64,000 nucleotides of DNA from Polytrichum commune (Eukaryota; Streptophyta; Polytrichopsida; Polytrichales; Polytrichaceae), in assembly GCA_950295325.1 (NCBI GenBank), contig OX485803.1:29388001-29452000 (forward strand), read 5' to 3'. Below, piece after piece: positions 11,268 to 58,817 of the stretch. The translations under genes were made by a program, and so were the position numbers. Positions within the stretch are counted from its first letter, which is position 1. The number at the start of each line of letters is the position of its first letter. The notes beneath the pieces were generated by a model. That model was not told where the DNA came from and made no database searches. It worked only from the letters and a program-made list of their open reading frames with translations.

Positions 11268-12173
11268 TTATTTCAAGTTGCCCCAGTCCTCGATTTCTGG
11301 GGTGCAGAAGGATCCACCAACACCCGACGTGGAGCTGTAAAACGTCGTGTACTTATTCTCCAAGCTCCAATCTACACCCCTGCTCTCCAAATTCCTCATC
11401 ACAACTTGAGATGGTGGTAATCCACATGTGCTCACAGTTTCTGAGTCCAAGAATTCGTGTGCAGATTTCTCTCGAGGAGTCTCGTTGATGATGTTGCCAC
11501 CGTTCATTGAGTTGGTAGGCTCGACTGGGGCGGCTGAGGTAGTCTCAATTGGAGTAGAGAGAATTTTTTTGGTCGACACAGATGGACCAGCTTTGATAGA
11601 AAGAGCAGACAGGTGGCGTGCAAGCTGAAGAGGGTCCGTAAACGGCAAGGGAGCTTCAGGAACTTCAGGAACTTCAGGAGCAGGCAAAGCCAAGAATTGG
11701 TGCGTTTTTCGGCTACGCAATTTCTTGTGCGACCGAGACTTGGGCGGCGGTAATTGGAAAAAATCGTCCCGCTTCTTCATCCAGTGCTCTTGTCGTTCCT
11801 TCCCACGAGCATGCACAGGTGGTGTTGTGGACTTGGTGGCGTTGTATTCAATAGTGGTCATAGTTCGCTGGCTGGATCCAGCCGGTACATCCATATCCTC
11901 GGAGCGCATCGAAAACTCAGTATGAGCATCACCACTGGGATGGGTGGCGTGATCCAAAGGTGACCCACTTGGAATTTCCAGGGAGTTTTGTAACTGATCT
12001 CCAGGTCTCGAGACTTCAGAGTTCATGTTTATTCGTTCCACTTGTGGCCACATACCTGGCAACCATTTCCCCACTTTGGTCCCACCGTACTCTTGCATCT
12101 TCATGTGGAAGTGCTTGATGCTTGGCATGTGAGATTTCCGTGTGCTCAAAGCAGGGGAAGTCACATTGCTCAT
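11268..12173 (-). other. Last exon: disordered C-terminal tail of the TRIM37-like protein
   Basis: A single 906-base exon encodes 301 residues and the stop codon. It opens after a TTTCAG acceptor with MSNVTSPALS. The tail is rich in Pro, Ser and Thr and contains a tandem EVPEVPEAP segment and a basic block (KSRSHKKLRSRKTH) that could act as a nuclear signal. No folded domain is recognisable. Animal TRIM37 also has a long, poorly conserved C-terminal tail, so length rather than sequence is shared. Confidence 0.8.
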
Positions 12174-15100
12174 CTGAAATCGCAATTTAATAGTCAGTGT
12201 TGATGATACATAACCTGCAGGGTTTTAGTGCTAGCCAAGCATTTAGCTTTGCTGACTCATTCAACATTAAGTCAACCTTTGAGGCCTTGCTGCAACTATA
12301 ATTCATAGAAACAAAATATTGAAATTGCTTGCGACCCTATGTTTAGTAGGCATTTGTTCAGTGTTGTGGTTTGATGTGATTGAGGCAATAGAGTATTCCT
12401 TGAGGAAATGGAGGCATAAGTCTCTCAAACTCATGGGTTGGTAGGGAGACTTGGCCCACTTTTGACATTTAATAATGTATATCAAACGTTCACATGGTGT
12501 CAGAACTCCCAATTGTTTGACTCTGGCCAAAAGACGCCTACATAGAAACGAGTTTCATAGCAAACTTTTTGCAGGCACCTACAATGGTGCTCTCCAAAGA
12601 TTCATAAGGAGCTTATTTATAACTAGCCATCTTTTAGCCAACGTCAAACCCCTACTTTCAATTCACTAATATTGGGAGTTCTGAAACCACTTGAACACTC
12701 CGTACAGATAATAAAATGTCAAATGTGGGCCATAACTCCCTACCGAACCATGAGTTTCTGAGAGACTTATTTGGGCCACAACTCTAATGTGAAATCAGTG
12801 TTTGATGATATATGAATTTAGAGGTTTGAGATGCTGCTGCCTTACCCCAGAGACTGCTTGCGCAAATGACACCTGCCCGTCCGCATGCACTGCAGCTGCC
12901 CGGCTACTTCGCCTCCGCCTGCGCTGGAAAAACGTCGCTGCGAACGCCCTTCGAATCACCGCCACCTGAAGATTGCCCTGCTGTCAGATGATTTTCTTGT
13001 GCACATAACATTGTAAAAAACTTTTTGTGTTGAATGAAGGTAGACTTTGACATCCAAGAGTGTGGGTGTCATTACAAAGCCTTCAGAGTTTAATAACTTT
13101 ACAGTGCTTCTTCAAAATTCACCTAATGATGCATTGAGTATTGATGCAAGTCACATTTCATCCTTTCAGATCTTGAAACTATCAAATATAGAAACAAAAG
13201 ACTAAATTGCAACCCAATGTTTGGTAACCATTGATTCAATGTAGTTGTTCAGTGTGGTTGATGTGATTGTATCGGTGTGTCGATATCCATGGCTCTAGAG
13301 GTTTCGTGATGAGATATTTTAATGCAACTTTAACCAATGACAATATCCTAAGTTTGTGACCTGAAATTTTAGTACCAACTAAGGTAAACGGGCCTAATTC
13401 AGTTACTGATCTTGATTGGGAACCTATATTTGAATGGTACGCGGTTAGGTGTGGCTCCAAGAATGGAGCCCAAAAATACATCTGTGTAAATGATATTGGA
13501 CTACATGTTCAAAATGTGATAACCATTTTAGGCTTAATAGTCAACATTATTTTATTTTTATTTTGGGGGGAGGGCTATATGACCATTTAATGAACATGAG
13601 AATCTTCACTTTGATCATGAATAAGATATTAATATGAGCTCCAAAAGTTATGAGGAAAGTGGCTACAGCCTTCATTTGGATTTGCTAACCATCTTGTATT
13701 AATCTCGTGCTTCATATATTAGGAGAAGTGGGCTAGTTGGAAAAGTAACCATTTAAGACCTATCCACCTTCAACATTGAATACAAGGAGTTGCATTGCAG
13801 ACCTGGGTGGCAGACTCATCTCGCTCAGCTTGCAATGCCGCCAGAGCCCTTCGCAAGTCTTGGCATTGTTGCTGATATCTGTTCCACACATCGTTTAGGG
13901 TTAAAACCTGAAACCAAATTCTAACGAATGATAACCATGTTGATTAGACTGTTGGCTGCGGTCATGTTGAAGGTGCAGTTTGCAAGACAATGAATAAGTA
14001 ATCAAAACAAATGCTCCAAAAGGGTCCAAGGTAAGAATCTCGTACGTGAGGGGCCTAACATAGAAGCGTAAAGTGATGGTGTCTTCTTCTGGGAGGAGAT
14101 AGCCTTCTTTCTCAAGTAGATCGATCCGGAAGAATTGATAGTAGCCCCAACATGCACCCGCCTGATCACATAAAAGACGTTAGAAGAGCACATCCAAGGA
14201 AAATCCTTAGGGGACCTTTTTTGTATAAAACAACTGATTATTCATGCAAGCGTTACAAGATTGCACACCTTGAAATGTTCTTCACCTACAGTGTTGGCTT
14301 AGCACTACAACAAAAACTAAAGAGAATTTCTAACTGCAAGATTAGAGGAGCCTCACTTCAAAGTCAGAGGAGAATTTGCGGACAATGCGCTGGTTGGGGC
14401 GATTGCGATGAAGAAGCTCAATGCCATACTCATAGGTTGCTGCTTCATTCCCACCTTCTACCATCTGATTCAACAAAATGAATCAATGCCATAATTGATG
14501 TCCAAGATATGATCCAACGAGAAACCCTAAATTTCATGTAGAAGTTAGTGCTCTCATCAGAGTTATACTTTCACTCAATGAGATTTTTTATCTGGATTTG
14601 GTCCCCTATGATTTCCCATTGGTTGTTTTGCATACAATATCAATAGATTCATTCCACTTGTGGTGCATGCTTGGAGGTAGAGATTGAATTTGAATGAAGA
14701 GAGATATTTTGGTTCATTGAGGGCCAAACTCGTTTTAACACCTCTTGGCATGCTAAAGTGAGTTGTCCTTATAGAACCAGTATAGAAAATTCTTCGTACA
14801 AATCTCAACACTAACTCCAACCATGCACTCAAAACTTACAGAACACGGAAGGTTGTGCATGCAAACAACCAACTGCCCACGAGAACTCATATTGAGTATA
14901 AGGATAACTCGATTGTTCATTAAATAATTAAGATTGGTTTTCAAAAAACAATTCTAAGCTCACCTCCAAGAAAACAGAGAGATGGGTACCCTGAGAGGCA
15001 CCACTTCCATTTGGGTACACCTGTCACACCAACACAACAAAGTCTGTAACATGCATGGCACACTCAAATGTTCATCAAAGAGAAAACTAGGAACGTTACT

Positions 15101-18100
15101 AACCTACTAAAAACAATTGGTCATCAGCAAAAGTGGTGAAATTTTACCTTCAATCTCCATGCAACACCTGAAGCACCAATAGGCTGCACAAAAATCAAGG
15201 CAAAGAAATAAAAGTTTATATTTTGCAATCAAGCAAGGTTCAATTGATGATACATCTTGGAAACCAATACAAGATCCAAACTTGACAATCCCCCAATTCC
15301 TGAAAATATTGTTCAATGCTCCTCTTTGTGGCTCCAAATTCTTTTGCTATCTAAGTCGTATGATTCCTTAAACAAATATCTTACAATCAAGCCAAAAGAC
15401 AGGTTCATGATATCCACAAGTAGGTCAATGCATGCATTGTTAAAAATTTAAAGTTCTGGCAATGTATACAATGAACAAGGCCATAATTTGCGGACATGAG
15501 AATGAAGTACCTCACTGTAAACAACAGCTTTGCTCAATAGGATGTCTCGGGGACTTTGGTTATCACCTAGACAGAATGAAGTAGGTCTATTCTGACTAAG
15601 ATTGGACTTGTAATTCTTCAAAATCAGCTCGCCATACTCATAGGAAGGCACAACCTGCTCAATCAAGTAAGTCTAGGCATTACACATCAAACACATCATA
15701 GGTTCGTAGAATCATTTAAACACCCTTGCATTCTACTGACATATTGTGGTACACGACACTTTTGCACCTCACCAATTTCGTTACAAAGCTAATGAGATTT
15801 TTGAATATCAACTACAAAGGTTAATCCATGTTGGATGTACTAAGTTGAGTACAAACAAGGTGAGCTGCATTTAAATTTTGGTCTAAGGAAATGAAGTTAC
15901 CTCAGATATGAAGTCTGCAGGAATGGGTGTGCGTGAGATGTCTGAAAATGTACGAGTTCGTATATCCTGCAGCTCCATGTCCCAGAGAAGAATTTTCAAA
16001 TTCAATTGCAGTGGCCTGAATCTGATAAATTAACTCCAGAGATCATGATAATATGTACTTCTGGAGGAACACCAGAAACAACCAAATATAGAGAACATTA
16101 CATTGTAAACAAATTCAGCTGATCAGAGTAAGTTTATATCTATTATATGTTCATTATTGTCCTATGTGATCAAGGTCAACCTGTAGCATTCGGCTCATAT
16201 TGGGCTCTTGAGCAATGAGGTCGCTTTTTGGAATGCTATTCAGCTGTTGATCAAGCTCATGCAGAATAGTGTCCAGCAGTTCCATCTGTGTAGAAAACAA
16301 CTTATTAGCTGCAATTGAAGATGCTATTAATCCCGAACTGATTACCTCCTGTAGATATTTTGTAGAATTTTCTTTCTACCATATATCAGATTTGACTGAA
16401 GCCACGTAAGTTCCCCAGGATTGGAACATAGATCTTAACATATGATGTACTGAAGTAAAGGTGGGTTTACATTAAGGTCAGATCCAAGAACCTTGGGGCC
16501 CAAAACACCCGTTATTGTACCTTACTTTTGGACTCCAGATTGGACCCAAGCCCAAAGATTGGTTTCCCAAACTAGGATGAGTATTTTCTTGAGTCAGGAC
16601 CGCCAAAATTTGGTGGGAAAGTAGTGCCACATTAACACCACTTCAGTTTTTTCATACTTCGGACTCAGACCCATTGTGAACTCCTTAGGTCCAAAATCAT
16701 GCTCTTGATCAATAGGATTTGTCAATTTTGGAGATTCTTTGGTCTAAGACTCTAGTGTTAACCCACCCTAATTATTTCTAGTAAATGATTTACAAACCCC
16801 AGTACTTGCAGTCACAAGGTAAAAGTGTCTAAAAATCGCAAACTTGAGCTCATTTGCTCAATATGTGACTCCCATGTCCTTTCCAGAGAGATCATTCCGG
16901 GGACATAAAAACAAAAACAAAGACAAACAGCAATCTAAGTAAATGTGTACATACCTCCTGTGTCATAGAGCCCTTTTGTGCCAATAATGCCAAGAGCTTG
17001 CATTTTAGCTGGTCTTCAAGCCGTGACTGTGTCAACATTCAACACTTCAGTCACAACATCTACAAGGTATATAACAGACATGTCTGGAGCTACAGTAGCT
17101 TTGAGCAGATATCCAAAGTGTATCACAAGAATAAAATTACAAGATTATGGACTCTAAAAAGACCCTGTTACAGATATAGATGGACATATCAAACTCTTCT
17201 GGGTCAGAATGTTCATATCTTTATAAAACACCTATAATTGCATGTATTAGGTGGGATCTAAGGTCCAATTGGGCAGGCAAGCATATGAGTTCAACTCTTA
17301 CCATGTGATCTCACCTAAGTAATTACTCTGATAATAACATGCCCATATAACACATAACATGTTGGCGTGTCTAACTGCAAAAATGTGTGCTATTTGAACA
17401 AAATCAACTAACAAACCTGCATTCTTTTGAAAACCACCTGGAGCTCAGCTGAGGATTCATCCTTTGACTGCCATAACAGAAGAAATACTTAAGTATCACT
17501 GCAAGAATTGGCACACTGGTGGTTCACTACAGATAAAATATCCCATGTCTATTTGGCTGGGTAAGAGAATTGTTTGCATGCATACCAATGGCACGTTGGT
17601 TGAATGATCTCTATGCTTAACCAACAATGAACAGACCATTTATACTACACTGGATAGATCCGTTGACAACATGTTTCTCCAGTAAAATGACAGAGAAGTA
17701 GAGGATACTATATTACCTTCAACACACTCTCAATATTCTTGTCAACCGATGCTACCAGTGCACAAAGCTCCTGCTAGGTGGCAATGCAAGAAAATCATCA
17801 ATACCAGTCATCATTCAGTGAAATTCAGGGCTGCTTAGTACTCTGTCAACTCTTAACCCAGAAATAGTTCAGGGCTGCTCCTGCTATTGATGATTATGTC
17901 ACAAGACCATGGAGAGCATAAAGGAAGTGTCCATTACTTTGCGGCGGCGACGCAGACCAGCTGCTTCAATTCGAATCTTCTTTTTGTGACGTCCATAGGC
18001 CACACTTAGTTTCTCAAAAGTATGATTTCGGTGATCCTATTGCAACACAATGACGGCATCAGTTCCAATTACGAACCAGATGGAGTTGGCCTTGAGAAGG

Positions 18101-21100
18101 ACAAATACAATATAACAAAACTTTCAGACTATTTTTACATCTGCATAACCCTCAACCAGCTCAAATCAATGTCCGGCTGATAACTGTCTGCTACTGACTT
18201 GGAGGTTTTACAGGGGCAGGTAGGAGTGTAACATACCTCAATCAAAACTGCGCAGTCTGAGCATACAGCAACCGAGCATGTTGTACAGAAGTACAAAAGT
18301 GGGCTATCGTGCGTTGGACAGTACTGCACAGTTACACCAAACCCAATTTAATAGTTGATCATTTGCGTTGCAATTTATCTCCTTAACTTGCACACAACTA
18401 CCGCCTAACACATCAAAGGAGTTCACCTAAAGAATAATAAGAGTTGAAGTACAGGGTCACACCTTTTCCAAAGGGTTGTCGCCAAATTTCCCTTGGATTC
18501 TCTCAACTTCCTAGAACTCATGCAAAACAAGACCAGCTTAGGTGGCTTGAAGTGAGCACATGGAATCGGTTTAGGATTGACCTCTTGGCTTCAACATCCT
18601 TAAATTAGAAACATGATCATGAAATAATTTGTGGTTCAAAAATTTATAACGTAGAATGAGTTAAGAAACTTGACAACTTACCACAGAGATTTCTGAAATA
18701 AATCGGCAGCTCACGAGCTGGGAGACAAGAAGAGGTGCTCTGCAATGTGGGCACTCTGATTTCTGGTCTGTGAGCCACCTCTGCAGAAGCAACACACTAG
18801 TAACACAACATTGTGACTACTCATTCACAAAACCACACAAGACCATTTTACTTGGGAATGCTTTTACAGAAGGTCTGAAATGCTTCATTTCATTGCAAGT
18901 ATAATCAACTTGGATATGCCAATCCACACATTAGTCTAAGAGCCATATGGCATTAGGTATCAAGCCCAAGCCCAGCCTAAAGTGGAGCAATTCTATTGGT
19001 TGGGAACTGAAAACCAAAGGGGAGAAAGAGTCTTGGACTAAGGTTGATCAAAGCAACTCTCCATGCAGTTCCAAACTTGTGAGTGATACAATACCTCCAT
19101 GACGAAGTCCAGTATTGTTTTGACTGCTCTCTGGATGTATTATTGTGTGTTTTGGATTTAATATACCAATGTCTCATTTGCTTGCAGGAAGATGAAATGG
19201 GTAGCATGTTGCAGAATAGTCACCACTAACCTTGATACATGGCTGGCACACTAGCTTGGAACAACATGGACATAGCTGCGCATCCACAACCTGAGGCAGA
19301 TACCAAAGATTAAACATGGGATTCCAATTTTGTTTGCGAAGGAACTGGAAGAATGATAGATTCAGAACACAGCCATTTGAACGCAACTGGTCAGGACCAG
19401 AAAACTACTAAACCCATCCTTACAGATTCTGATCTTTAAGCCTCTCATGCGATTATAACCATCTATACTGCCCTACTGTGAAAAAGGCAATGGTAATTGT
19501 TAGCAAACCTAGTTATCCTAACAAGTCAAGGTGCCAATCCAGCTGAGTTCTACTCACCACATTCAGCCCCAATAAGGATTGAGGCTCTATCTGCTGCTTA
19601 AACCCTAAACTGGGAGAGGATCAAAAGAAATGAAAATTCAGGTCAACAAACTGAAATCGGAAGAACAGCAGCAAGAATAACAGCAAGATATAATAAGTGT
19701 ACACCTTGCCAAGACATATGAAGCAACGGAAGATCTCTGCCAGTGTTGAAGCTGCATCCCCAGCATTTCCCACCATAGCCGGTTCTGCCCCATGGCAGGC
19801 TACAAAGCTCATTACTCCATCAGCACCAATCACTTCCTCCTCCTCATCAGAGCCCTGCAAAGAGCCCGGGTCGCTTACATCGTTGCTGACATCGTTTGCA
19901 ATCCCTGTAGTAGTGTTCAAGAAGTCGCACGGTTCCTCCATGTCCATTGCCTGCTGGAGACTCGAAAGCTGCTCACTCTGTGGTAAAATCAAGTGTTGAG
20001 GAACTGAGCTCGCAAACGGATGGTGAGGTGGAGTGGAGCCAACTATGAGCAATCTTTGAGCATCAGCCTGCAACAAGCACAATGGAAATTTCTGAAACCC
20101 CATAAATTGGAAGGGAAGCTTATAAACAGGCCAAAGAGCCGAGGAGGATGTCAATCAAAGATGTGGACAATGCAAGCAAGCTACAGGGTTTACATTCCCT
20201 GGCAATCTCTACCGTCATACTAACATCACTATTTAGATCTCCATCCAAATGCCAAATGTATCATATCCACCTATCTGCCTATGGTAACACTTTAGAACTC
20301 GACCCCAAAAAAATTGAGGTAGAAAATGCTGTGTAGATGGTGGCCTCCGTTTAGTCACTCAGCTGCCCAGAGCTTTCCCACCAAAGGTCCCACTACCTAC
20401 AGGAAAAAAGGGGCTGCTTTTGAGATGCGAAGGCCTTCATCTCGCCAGTGGTGCAAGGCAAAATAAGAGGACAAACTAGGGTGACCACCATAATTGGTAT
20501 TTTTTTCGTGTGACGATCACAGTATTCCATTTCAGTGTAGATATGGACTGAAAAACATAACTAACAATAATCTCGCATGTATCAGAGCAGGACTAAGAGC
20601 CCAGAAATTATCATCCCAATGTGGAGGGATGCTTGAAGCCCTCCTCAAAATCTTCGTGGCTGTAGAAAGGAAAGAGAACGGTTGGGACATTCCCACACAA
20701 CCGGGTCCAGAGAACATCACTATCATCCAGACAACAATACATTTCTTGTCAAAAACAAAAAAGACAAACCGTATCCCATCTTTCTCCCCTCCATTAATCT
20801 CTTTCCAACCGAGCAGCATACGAGAACCTTGGCTCTCAAAATGCAATGCATACATAGCCGATCCCCAATCCCCTCATCCCACCAAGTGCTGTGGAAGCAT
20901 AAACTACAACATCAAATTGGGAATGGAATAGTGTGATGATGTGATGATGATACCTGGGCAGCTTCGCTGAGGCTGGTCACCCGAGAGTGATGGTGATTGC
21001 GGAGGCTATGGGTGCGAGGGCGAAGTCTCCCTCGGTGGCCAAACAGAAAGGAGCCACAGTCAGTGCAATCATAGTCCAAGGCATGTGATGGAGAAACAGC

Positions 21101-21232
21101 GATGACAGACCCCGGGGCTATGCGAGTGCAGCTACTGCTGGTCGAACTCGTGGATGAAGAGGAGCTGCTACTATAATTGCTGCTATTGCTCATATTGCTT
21201 CCACCTCCACCTTCTCGCAAGGTGCCAGCCAT
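11268..21232 (-). CDS. TRIM37-like E3 ubiquitin ligase (RING, B-box, coiled coil, MATH), 20 exons
   Basis: Exons read on the minus strand: 21232-20954, 20067-19705, 19290-19231, 18780-18682, 18510-18463, 18323-18237, 18036-17938, 17770-17717, 17467-17417, 17026-16955, 16285-16181, 15966-15901, 15654-15511, 15183-15148, 15020-14964, 14464-14357, 14161-14046, 13920-13803, 12965-12846, 12173-11268. All proposed introns are GT-AG and the frame stays open to a TAA at 11268, giving about 995 residues (human TRIM37 is 964). Domain order is RING (about 208-247), B-box (about 285-317), coiled coil (about 330-440) and MATH (about 465-615), followed by a short helix and a long disordered tail. Known TRIM37 is a ubiquitin ligase; the same activity here is inferred. 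The first ATG is at 21232; the frame stays open upstream without an ATG, so an upstream coding exon is possible. The least certain junction is exon 17/18: donor 14045 with acceptor 13921 keeps frame, but acceptor 13908 with another donor would too. Confidence 0.9.
12415..12771. repeat. Inverted-repeat element in intron 19 of the TRIM37-like gene
   Basis: The left arm (12415-12515) and right arm (12668-12771) are inverted copies, e.g. ATAAGTCTCTCAAACTCATG versus ATAAGTCTCTCAGAAACTCATG, and TCAGAACTCCCAAT in both. About 150 bases lie between. It is intronic, between exons 19 and 20. Confidence 0.7.
13380..13760 (+). repeat. Dispersed family D1 copy in intron 18 of the TRIM37-like gene
   Basis: This is the fullest copy of a family of about 380 bp. 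It begins near GGGCCTAATTCAGTTACTGA, runs through TTTGAATGGTACGCGGTTAGG and GACTACATGTTCAAAATGTG, and ends near GGATTTGCTAACCATC plus about 50 bases. Other copies: 1555-1830 (minus), 8780-9130 (plus), 33763-33840 with 34204-34330 (minus, split), 35590-35770 (minus), 38040-38360 (plus), 53665-53970 (minus), 63580-63640 (plus). No inverted repeats or protein were found. Confidence 0.75.
14046..15654 (-). other. MATH/TRAF domain coding segment (exons 13-17)
   Basis: Exon 13 opens VVPSYEYGELILKNYK, the start of a MATH fold. Exons 14-15 give GVAWRLKVYPNGSG and THLSVFLE. Exon 16 gives ATYEYGIELLHRN and KFSSDFE, and exon 17 continues AGACWGYYQFFRIDLL, EKEGYLLPEEDTITLRFYVRP. These track the TRIM37 MATH domain almost motif for motif (WRLKVYP, LSVFLEL, SDFExGxCWGY, FFRxDLL, EGYL). 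In TRIM37 this domain binds substrates and partners; the plant partner is unknown. Confidence 0.9.
14641..14850. repeat. Related MITE in intron 15 of the TRIM37-like gene
   Basis: It shares GGTGCATGCTTGGAGGTAG and the centre CTCTTGGCATGC with 10529-10716. It lies between exons 15 and 16. Confidence 0.62.
16459..16768. mobile_element. PIF/Harbinger-type MITE in intron 10 of the TRIM37-like gene
   Basis: Left end AGGTGGGTTTACA and right end the complement of GTTAACCCACCC are flanked by TAA at 456-458 and 769-771 (16 kb). It lies wholly inside the intron between exons 10 and 11, about 187 bases from the upstream exon, and leaves splice sites untouched. Confidence 0.7.
18022..18320 (-). other. 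B-box zinc finger coding segment (exons 6-7)
   Basis: Exon 6 encodes CPTHDSPLLYFC followed by TTC, VAVC and SDC, and exon 7 starts DHRNHTFEKL. The ligand pattern is C-x2-H-x7-C-x2-C-x4-C-x2-C-x6-H-x2-H, a type 2 B-box. The HTF-x-x-L tail matches the TRIM family. In plants, B-boxes are best known from CONSTANS-like/BBX transcription factors; this one follows a RING and precedes a coiled coil, which is the tripartite TRIM arrangement. Exons 7-11 (18036-16181) then encode Lys/Arg-rich and leucine-heptad sequence with the TRIM37-like motif QLKxKLLxLxxQKxSxTQE, consistent with the dimerising coiled coil. Confidence 0.88.
18742..19725 (-). other. RING finger coding segment (end of exon 2, exon 3, exon 4)
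   Basis: The domain is split over three exons: CFICLGK ends exon 2, exon 3 gives VVDAQLCPCCSKLVCQPCIK, and exon 4 starts RWLTDQKSECPHCRAPL. This gives four CxxC pairs (CFIC, CPCC, CQPC, CPHC), the same spacing as in animal TRIM37. The usual CPHC of the second pair reads CPCC here, which leaves the outer cysteines in place. The conserved RWLT(D/E)Q helix and CPHCRAPL after it are the strongest evidence of orthology to TRIM37 rather than to generic plant RING proteins. The junctions (19704 donor, 19291 acceptor, 19230 donor, 18781 acceptor) are all phase 0. Confidence 0.92.
19705..21232 (-). other. N-terminal extension of the TRIM37-like protein (exons 1-2)
   Basis: Exons 1 and 2 encode about 207 residues before the RING, whereas animal TRIM37 starts only about a dozen residues before it. 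The extension has a run rich in serine and threonine near residues 38-60, a basic His/Arg patch (RPRTHSLRNHHHSR) and an acidic SDEEEE stretch in exon 2, which suggests a disordered, possibly phosphorylated region. A CTDCGSFLFG segment carries one CxxC, but I see no second zinc pair to complete a finger. Intron 1 (20953-20068) is the longest in the gene and holds no recognisable element. Its open frames, including one of 145 codons on the other strand, look like chance. Confidence 0.75.
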
Positions 21233-37494: not shown

Positions 37495-38645
37495 GCATCG
37501 TTTATATATGATATTTAGTGTCACCTGCATAATAGTGTCAACTACTCTCTCTCCAGGCATATGTTGGATTACATTGATTATCAACAACTTCATTGTTAAT
37601 GTCACCTCATGACACTTGGCGTTCAAGTGCGCTTACTAGTATCTTCACACGACTATGCTCAATAGTGTTACGAGGTGTATGCCTATGTTACACAATGGTC
37701 TACATACAAGTTGAGTAAAGTGTACACAAATAACACTTGGCATTAGTAGACTAAAAATTATCTTCCTCTTGCATATTAAAATGTAAACACATGACAAATT
37801 GCCATTAGCATGCTTAATAATATATTCTCCTTGCATAGGAAACTGCAAAACTTTCATCTCAAGTATTCCAAGATGCTACGGTAAATGCACAACAAAAATA
37901 TGTCTCACTTACAAAAGTTACTTATGTTGTCATCTTGGCAATTAGCAGACTTCACACTTTGAGACCCCTAAGGGTTGCTTCAAACACAAAATTGAAGGCA
38001 TATAATCATTGCATTCTAAGATCTCTCGTTGTTCAAAAAGGCCGAGACAGTCCACTATATTTGATTGGTATGTGGTTCGGTGAGGATCAAAGAGCAAACA
38101 TCATAAAGACGCATGTTTAAAAGAGATTGGAGCACGTCTTCAAATATTAGTAACTATGCTACACTCACTAGTGAACAAAATTGGGAGGATCTACGTATCC
38201 AGTTAAGAAAGCAACAAACATGTACTTCCAATAGACATAACTAAAACAAGGGAGGTCGGATTTTCAATATGGTTTTTGCATACGTTTCATCGTAGATTTG
38301 CTAATGCAACATGAGTTTTGTTGTGTGAATCTAATTGGTAGAAGTTGGAGAACATGAAAAAATACCTTAAAATGTGAAAGCCTAAGAACTTTTCATCATG
38401 AATGAAAAGTCTACATAGATTCCTACATTATAAATATTATTCAATGGTCTACTGGAATGTGCATGAGACCCACCTCTAAGAAGTAGGCACGACACAAATT
38501 CTAGCAGACCATGTCAGTGGTACGGCCTTTGGATGAGAATCAAGGACCCTCACACTTACATGGTCACGGCCCTTGGCTCGTGTGTGAAGTGGCCCTAAGC
38601 ATCTAGTTTACACAAATAGTGTACGTGCCACTAAAGACTAGTATA
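37495..38645. mobile_element. CTACAC-family element interrupted by a Harbinger MITE
   Basis: The left part (37495-37971) and right part (38596-38645) align with the uninterrupted copy at 7381-7906: sequence running GAGACCCCTAA|GCATCTAG there is continuous. Both termini are more decayed than in the other copies. The break is filled exactly by the 624-bp element at 37972-38595. Confidence 0.75.
37972..38595. mobile_element. PIF/Harbinger-type MITE nested in a CTACAC-family element
   Basis: It begins GGGTTGCTTCAAACACA and ends with the complement of GGGCCACTTCACACACGAG, with TAA on both sides (37969-37971 and 38596-38598). The host element reads through when this piece is removed, which confirms the boundaries. 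Inside it carries a copy of the roughly 380-bp dispersed family (about 38040-38360). Confidence 0.82.
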
Positions 38646-57809: not shown

Positions 57810-57825
57810 AAAACCCTAAACCCTG
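57810..57825 (+). promoter_or_regulatory. Telo-box in the RPL23A promoter/leader
   Basis: AAAACCCTAAACCCTG lies 70-85 bases upstream of the ATG. The AAACCCTAA telo-box is a known hallmark of plant ribosomal protein and translation-factor promoters, usually near the transcription start. A pyrimidine-rich TTCGTTCCTTCTCTTTTG follows at 57828-57845, as expected for a leader of a translation-machinery gene. A GGGC-containing box read from the opposite strand (57694-57703) might be a site II relative, but does not match TGGGCY exactly. Confidence 0.75.
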
Positions 57826-57894
57826 CGTTTCGTTCCTTCTCTTTTGCAGCCTGAGTGCCGCCGCACTGCACCCTTGCCCTCGCTCTTGCCAGCC

Positions 57895-58817
57895 ATGGCG
57901 CCCACGAAGGTCGCCAAGACCACCAACCCCCAGGCCGCTAAGGCTACGAAGGCGGCGAAGGCCCTGAAGACGGCCACGCCGTTGAAGAAGAAATGGAGGA
58001 AGGTGCGCACCTCGGTGACCTTCCATCGCCCGAAGACTTTGAAGAAGGCCAGGGCGCCCAAGTATCCACGCATCAGTGCTCCGCCCAGGAACAAGCTCGA
58101 CCATTACGAAGTGCTGAAGTACCCCTTGACCACCGAGTCGGCCATGAAGAAGATCGAGGACAACAACACTCTGGTATTCATCGTGGACGTTCGGGCCGAT
58201 AAGAAGAAGATCAAGGAGGCTGTGAAGAAGATGTACGACATCCAGACCAAGAAGGTCAACACACTGATCAGGTGATTATTTCATTTCCATATCTCCTCAT
58301 CTGATTGGATTTGCAATAAGTGCCCCCGAATTAGGGTTTGGAATTAGGTCACGAAATTTGTAGGTTAGTTGGTAGTGCACTGGAAGGTTGACGAGGGTGT
58401 GTTGGTGGTGTTATGAATCGGCCTTTCACTTGGTCACAAGTAGATGTGAAGGGGACATGGTCGTATTTTGACATTGATGATAATATGGCTTAACTGGCTT
58501 CTGGGAAACTCTTGAAAGAGCAATTATTGATTTTATATGCTTCAATTCTTCCCAATTCACGTGCTTCCGGGATGTGTTGTCGCATTTGAGAGTTAGCCGG
58601 TTGCCCGTTCTTGCAATCCTGAACCCCTAAGACGACAGAATTCTGTGGGAAATTGATGTTATGGGAAATTGATGTTATGAGTCTTGGAAATAAGTGTTGT
58701 GAGCCTGATTTGTAGTCTTGTCTGATCTGCAGGCCTGATGGAGCAAAGAAGGCGTATGTTAGACTGACAGCTGATTACGACGCCCTGGATGTAGCTAACA
58801 AGATTGGCATCATCTAA
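57895..58817 (+). CDS. RPL23A: 60S ribosomal protein L23A (uL23), two exons
   Basis: Exon 1 is 57895-58271 and exon 2 is 58733-58817, joined across a 461-base GT-AG intron within an Arg codon (AG|G), for 153 residues. The N-terminal 45 residues are a Lys/Ala-rich eukaryote-specific extension ([14 protein letters not shown]), followed by [16 protein letters not shown] and the conserved uL23 core with [39 protein letters not shown] and the C-terminal VANKIGII. uL23 binds 25S rRNA at the peptide exit tunnel and docks SRP and NAC. Length and ends match plant L23A. Codon use is GC-rich compared with the flanks. The 157-codon open frame on the opposite strand (57631-58104) is a shadow. It looks intact and functional. 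Confidence 0.97.

Follow-up and report, generated by a model that had tools for sequence, protein, structure and literature searches.

A predicted TRIM37 ortholog with full domain order in the moss Polytrichum commune

Does a moss genome encode a protein of the TRIM37 type, with RING, B-box, coiled coil and MATH in one chain, and, if so, is it an old plant gene or a look-alike? This question is raised by a locus of Polytrichum commune (contig OX485803.1) within a stretch of 64,000 nt, hereafter the window (G000:C1:29388001-29452000), whose numbering is used for all positions below unless a genome position is given. On its minus strand, from the first in-frame ATG at 21232 to the last base of the TAA stop codon at 11268, the window very probably carries a plant ortholog of TRIM37, a TRIM of Subfamily A, which appears intact and is the only such gene that we found in the genome. 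The kind of gene is already known, and what the window adds is a plant TRIM37 with the full domain order. Papers are cited by PMC number.

Gene model, domains and likeness to human TRIM37

Splice borders were searched near their expected places with only GT-AG permitted, which makes GT-AG a condition of the model and not a result, and we set the start and stop codons from the open frames. Under this condition, 20 exons could be joined into one open frame of 995 amino acids with no internal stop. The coordinates given by the initial annotation of this locus (11268-21232) were exact, and its number of exons, 20, is that of the model. The full protein matched the Pfam models MATH_2 (PF22486; E 7.1e-18, 65.6 bits against a cut-off of 32) and zf-B_box (PF00643; E 8.2e-10, 39.1 bits against 24.1), and MATH PF00917 just passed (23.2 bits against 21.2). 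When the RING-to-MATH part was compared with a PDB library of 177,635 distinct sequences, the best match to the RING was human TRIM37 (3LRQ; E 1.5e-24), the next one having an E value of 4.6e-9, and the coiled-coil region aligned with the TRIM proteins TRIM3 and TRIM72. The domain order is RING, a single B-box of type 2, coiled-coil region and MATH.

As comparison sequence we used residues 1-485 of what we take to be human TRIM37. This sequence contains the 75 letters of 3LRQ and has C at residue 18 and W at residue 373, in accordance with PMC12620544. From RING through MATH, 195 of 472 positions were identical (41%) and 284 were positive (two-sequence BLASTP, E 4e-122), the alignment beginning at residue 198 of the window protein and at residue 5 of the human one. 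Identity over the aligned columns was highest in the RING (62%), followed by the MATH domain (51%), the coiled coil (42%), the B-box and the linker (40% each) and the stretch after MATH (30%). Together with 3LRQ, PF00643 and PF22486, this continuous alignment bears out the initial proposal that RING, B-box and MATH occur in TRIM37 order with motif-level similarity. The proposed coiled coil fared less evenly: its assignment would rest on the alignment to TRIM proteins and on the 42% identity, and none of its 104 residues is a proline, whereas a test of heptad periodicity gave no significant signal (see below). The very similar total length does agree with the 964 amino acids that we presume for human TRIM37, although it is no evidence of homology, since the two alignment starts differ so widely.

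At the level of single residues, eight RING cysteines are common to both proteins (8 of 8 positions) and, on our reading, these would be the zinc-binding ones. All eight B-box ligands are retained with a spacing identical to that of the presumed human sequence, and so all 16 zinc-ligand positions of RING and B-box are in place. Within the RING, human H30 is replaced by C and human C35 by V. C18 and W373 have their counterparts in C211 and W581 of the window protein. In sum, the two proteins share a RING with a CPxCSK loop, a B-box2, a coiled-coil region and a MATH domain in the same order, and the window protein differs from human TRIM37 by some 20 additional residues close to where MATH begins and by a long N-terminal part preceding the alignment. 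The exons of the model are listed with the evidence for each.

Exon 1, 20954..21232, minus strand: first in-frame ATG and Ser-rich N-terminal extension (gene model; no listed Pfam domain)
Exon 2, 19705..20067, minus strand: acidic extension, then start of the RING, AEIFRCFICLGK (gene model, PDB and genome searches)
Exon 3, 19231..19290, minus strand: zinc loop of the RING, LCPCCSKLVCQPC (gene model, PDB search, residue comparison)
Exon 4, 18682..18780, minus strand: second half of the RING, RWLTDQKSECPHCRAPL (gene model, PDB search, residue comparison)
Exon 5, 18463..18510, minus strand: linker from RING to B-box (gene model; acceptor less certain, with five AG candidates)
Exon 6, 18237..18323, minus strand: first six B-box2 ligands (gene model, Pfam, genome B-box search, residue comparison)
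Exon 7, 17938..18036, minus strand: last two B-box2 His and start of the coiled-coil region (gene model, Pfam, residue comparison)
Exon 8, 17717..17770, minus strand: coiled-coil region (gene model, human alignment)
Exon 9, 17417..17467, minus strand: coiled-coil region; alternative start 17461 (gene model, human alignment)
Exon 10, 16955..17026, minus strand: coiled-coil region (gene model, genome search, human alignment)
Exon 11, 16181..16285, minus strand: end of the coiled-coil region (gene model, genome search, human alignment)
Exon 12, 15901..15966, minus strand: linker preceding the MATH domain (gene model, genome search, human alignment)
Exon 13, 15511..15654, minus strand: start of the MATH domain, with the extra residues relative to the presumed human TRIM37 (gene model, genome search, residue comparison)
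Exon 14, 15148..15183, minus strand: MATH (gene model, Pfam)
Exon 15, 14964..15020, minus strand: MATH (gene model, Pfam)
Exon 16, 14357..14464, minus strand: MATH (gene model, Pfam, genome search)
Exon 17, 14046..14161, minus strand: MATH, with W581 matching human W373; alternative end 14060 (gene model, residue comparison)
Exon 18, 13803..13920, minus strand: stretch after MATH; alternative start 13907 (gene model, genome search)
Exon 19, 12846..12965, minus strand: basic stretch (RRRRR); alternative start 12977 (gene model)
Exon 20, 11268..12173, minus strand: Ser/Pro-rich C-terminal tail and stop codon (gene model, open frame)

The model used is the second-ranked chain (995 amino acids, score 199.0), and the top-ranked one (999 amino acids, score 199.3) differs from it at the start of exon 19. 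Near-equal border alternatives exist at at least three places (exon 9 start, exon 17/18, exon 19 start), and the length of the protein could therefore vary by several residues. The exon 17/18 junction is uncertain: with the border 14060/13907 all 19 introns would be in phase 0, whereas 14046/13920 retains a VRPLT stretch like the VRSPT that we take to be present in human TRIM37. In the model used, 18 of the 19 introns are in phase 0, which is more than we would expect by chance.

Ortholog, look-alike, newcomer or relic

Several observations speak against the assignment as a TRIM37 ortholog. In the full protein, two listed RING models of Pfam remained below their cut-offs (24.9 bits against 27 and 21.1 against 27.3). 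Scanned alone, the RING piece exceeded the cut-offs of both models (31.6 and 27.5 bits) but not those of two more RING models (19.1 against 27 and 16.6 against 21); the RING of human TRIM37 itself reaches the cut-off of just the first of these four. Furthermore, the heptad-moment test found no significant periodicity in the coiled-coil region (p 0.248 and 0.128), and the B-box residue that we take to be W120 in human TRIM37 is a Leu in the window protein, so B-box assembly may differ. Finally, outside the 3LRQ stretch the human comparison depends on the sequence that we presumed, and the splicing, like the gene model as a whole, is predicted from the DNA.

A TRIM37 look-alike could have arisen by convergent fusion, a plant RING/B-box protein having gained a plant MATH domain. 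The material for such an event is at hand, since the genome holds other MATH genes and seven of the eight matches of a genome B-box search lie outside the window gene. The MATH family model gave 20 matches in the genome (25 of 25 candidates scored), and the genes behind them, read by eye, appear to be of the MATH-BTB, multi-MATH and USP7 types. The window gene is absent from these 20 matches because its MATH domain is divided among short exons, and this absence therefore means little. Plant MATH proteins (MATH-BTB, multi-MATH and MATH-USP7) share the MATH fold with the window protein, although to our knowledge these classes have neither RING nor B-box. Plant BBX proteins likewise have a B-box type zinc finger in common with it. 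Their B-boxes number one or two, CCT may be present or absent, and the consensus is nearer to B-box1 (PMC2533329), whereas the window protein has a B-box2 following a RING.

The MATH domain itself points away from such a fusion. We built a tree of eight rows, in which the TRIM37 row was the presumed one, the SPOP and USP7 rows were copied from PDB alignments, and four of the 18 host MATH segments that were read represented the genome, TRAF and meprin being left out. The window MATH joined TRIM37 with a support of 100/99, apart from SPOP, USP7 and the four host MATH domains; three of the five inner branches were unsupported. In agreement with this, it is far closer to the presumed TRIM37 (135 bits) than to any of the four host domains compared (42.4 bits at most). 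A PDB search with the MATH domain alone returned 184 sequences at E values up to 10, the best being SPOP (E 1.7e-4), and none of the best 60 of these 184 was TRIM37 by name. Since identity to TRIM37 extends from the RING to the MATH domain, with B-box, coiled coil and linker included, convergent fusion appears close to refuted, and we give it next to no credence.

Horizontal transfer or contamination, in place of vertical descent, might be suspected from the patchy distribution of Subfamily A in eukaryotes (PMC3503706), a source in which horizontal transfer is itself deemed far-fetched. We consider this very unlikely here. The gene lies inside a contig of 77.9 Mb, about 36 kb from an open reading frame (ORF) for ribosomal protein L23, its model contains 19 introns, and two diverged fragments of it adjoin repeat DNA of the same genome. 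In addition, a RING/B-box query found no relative in a prokaryotic collection, in a scan that reaches close relatives only. A decaying or unexpressed copy would find some support in these same fragments, which are dead, and yet standard splice sites allow all 20 exons to be linked into a frame free of stops and the zinc-ligand positions are retained throughout, so this too we hold to be highly improbable. An apparently intact TRIM37 ortholog thus accounts best for the locus.

Copy number agrees with a single gene. We searched the genome (407,808,757 bases, 64 contigs) with the RING-to-MATH protein; all of the 25 candidates were scored, and 17 matches resulted. Of these, 12 fall within the window gene, two are exon-13 fragments on contig C3, and three are weak ones at other places that involve the RING part (E 7.4e-6 to 8.5e-4; one at C1:46483972). 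This was the sole gene of the TRIM37 type found in the 408-Mb genome. The two fragments (G000:C3:31897490-31897956, locus L001 5490-5956; G000:C3:32010804-32011284, locus L002 4804-5284) are 88-89% identical to exon 13 and parts of the introns on either side (467 and 481 columns), and they carry a stop in frame. A 1.8-kb stretch is common to both places, with the fragment at one of its ends, and most of its remainder resembles a repeat family with at least 41 matches, both places included (40 of 1,460 candidates scored). On our reading, a repeat, probably a transposable element, captured this piece of the gene at the DNA level, and the fragments do not represent a second gene.

Other features were seen in the window and the genome. 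At 38055-38366, two stretches resemble parts of L001 (87% and 76% identity) and are likely repeat DNA. The ORF at 57820-58275 (plus strand) codes for residues 1 to 126 of a ribosomal protein L23 and matches the Pfam models Ribosomal_L23eN and Ribosomal_L23. Fragments of the rbcL family occur in large contigs (G000:C3:14137891-14138196 and G000:C2:70106055-70106189), probably as plastid DNA moved to the nucleus. Contig C8 carries a complete rbcL followed by a tRNA-Arg with anticodon CCG, an order that we take to be that of bryophyte plastids. Besides C1, contigs C2, C3 and C7 measure 70.3, 59.2 and 42.1 Mb, and C4, C5 and C6 extend to at least 33, 52 and 29 Mb, in keeping with seven large chromosomes.

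Earlier records and predicted activity

The initial annotation presented a plant TRIM37 as a little-described ligase; novelty of the kind is not supported. Marin 2012 (PMC3503706) described TRIM37-like "Subfamily A" genes in plants, fungi, alveolates, excavates and apusozoans, named Dictyostelium, and defined the class in a figure legend by RING, B-box and MATH. By that description, the window protein belongs to the same class as these plant, protist and fungal genes. Other sources state the opposite. The TRIM module has been called metazoan-specific (PMC2533329), and the TRIM37 family has been given as animal-only or not found in plants (PMC10218331, PMC3664471); PMC10218331 is a 2023 survey of plant MATH proteins that detected no member of the family in the plants it had selected, Physcomitrium patens and Selaginella included. 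With its RING just under the Pfam cut-offs and PF00917 just over, a gene such as this one could be filed by a domain-based survey as "one MATH". The excerpts of PMC9328179 (a reference only) and PMC11644801 (a list of MATH families) hold nothing on plants, and among the papers that our literature searches listed, titles and abstract openings revealed no work on the function of a plant TRIM37.

In human TRIM37, C18R is ligase-dead and W373 of the TRAF (MATH) domain is needed for centrosome localisation; oligomerisation is driven mainly by the RING, and the B-box serves substrate recognition and perhaps higher assembly (PMC12620544). Since the window protein retains counterparts of both residues, a ligase recognising its substrates through MATH would be its best reading. 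The RING is predicted to have E3 ubiquitin ligase activity and the MATH domain to recognise and bind substrates; catalysis, oligomerisation, peptide binding and the existence of any substrate are all deduced from sequence. TRIM37 has also been reported to support peroxisome import via PEX5, and mice lacking TRIM37 were without a peroxisomal phenotype (PMC7870141).

A possible link to centrioles

In plants with swimming sperm, body cells have no centrioles and sperm precursors build them de novo, as takes place in P. patens. De novo centriole formation requires SAS-6, Bld10 and POC1 in P. patens, and human TRIM37 keeps Centrobin, PLK4 and CEP192 from forming ectopic assemblies (PMC9014216, the source for both; PMC12620544 for human TRIM37). 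We therefore raise, as a tentative and rather doubtful idea, that TRIM37 in swimming-sperm plants might be a ligase that stops mistimed or misplaced condensation of centriole and spindle-pole proteins, as the human one does with Centrobin and CEP192. A TRIM37 retained in a swimming-sperm plant fits such a role, and the genome contains a SAS-6 match (E 2.1e-19), the co-presence of the two being weak evidence. For CPAP, the model Tcp10_C gave no match in the genome, its controls being silent as well. Cep192_D4 had one genome match just below threshold (34.6 against 35.5 bits), and this model also matches an archaeon below the cut-off.

Against a centriole role stands the 2023 survey (PMC10218331), which detected no TRIM37 family in a selection that included P. 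patens and Selaginella. That survey may have missed TRIM37, possibly because the RING lies near the Pfam cut-offs, or else these plants may truly lack the gene.

If the centriole idea were true, acentriolar lineages such as flowering plants would be free to lose TRIM37, and its role in centriole control would predate the split of plants and animals. Mosses are genetically manipulable and are not known to make centrioles outside sperm precursors. Whether the oldest function of TRIM37 was centriole control, peroxisome import or an action on chromatin would thus be testable in mosses by removal of the gene.
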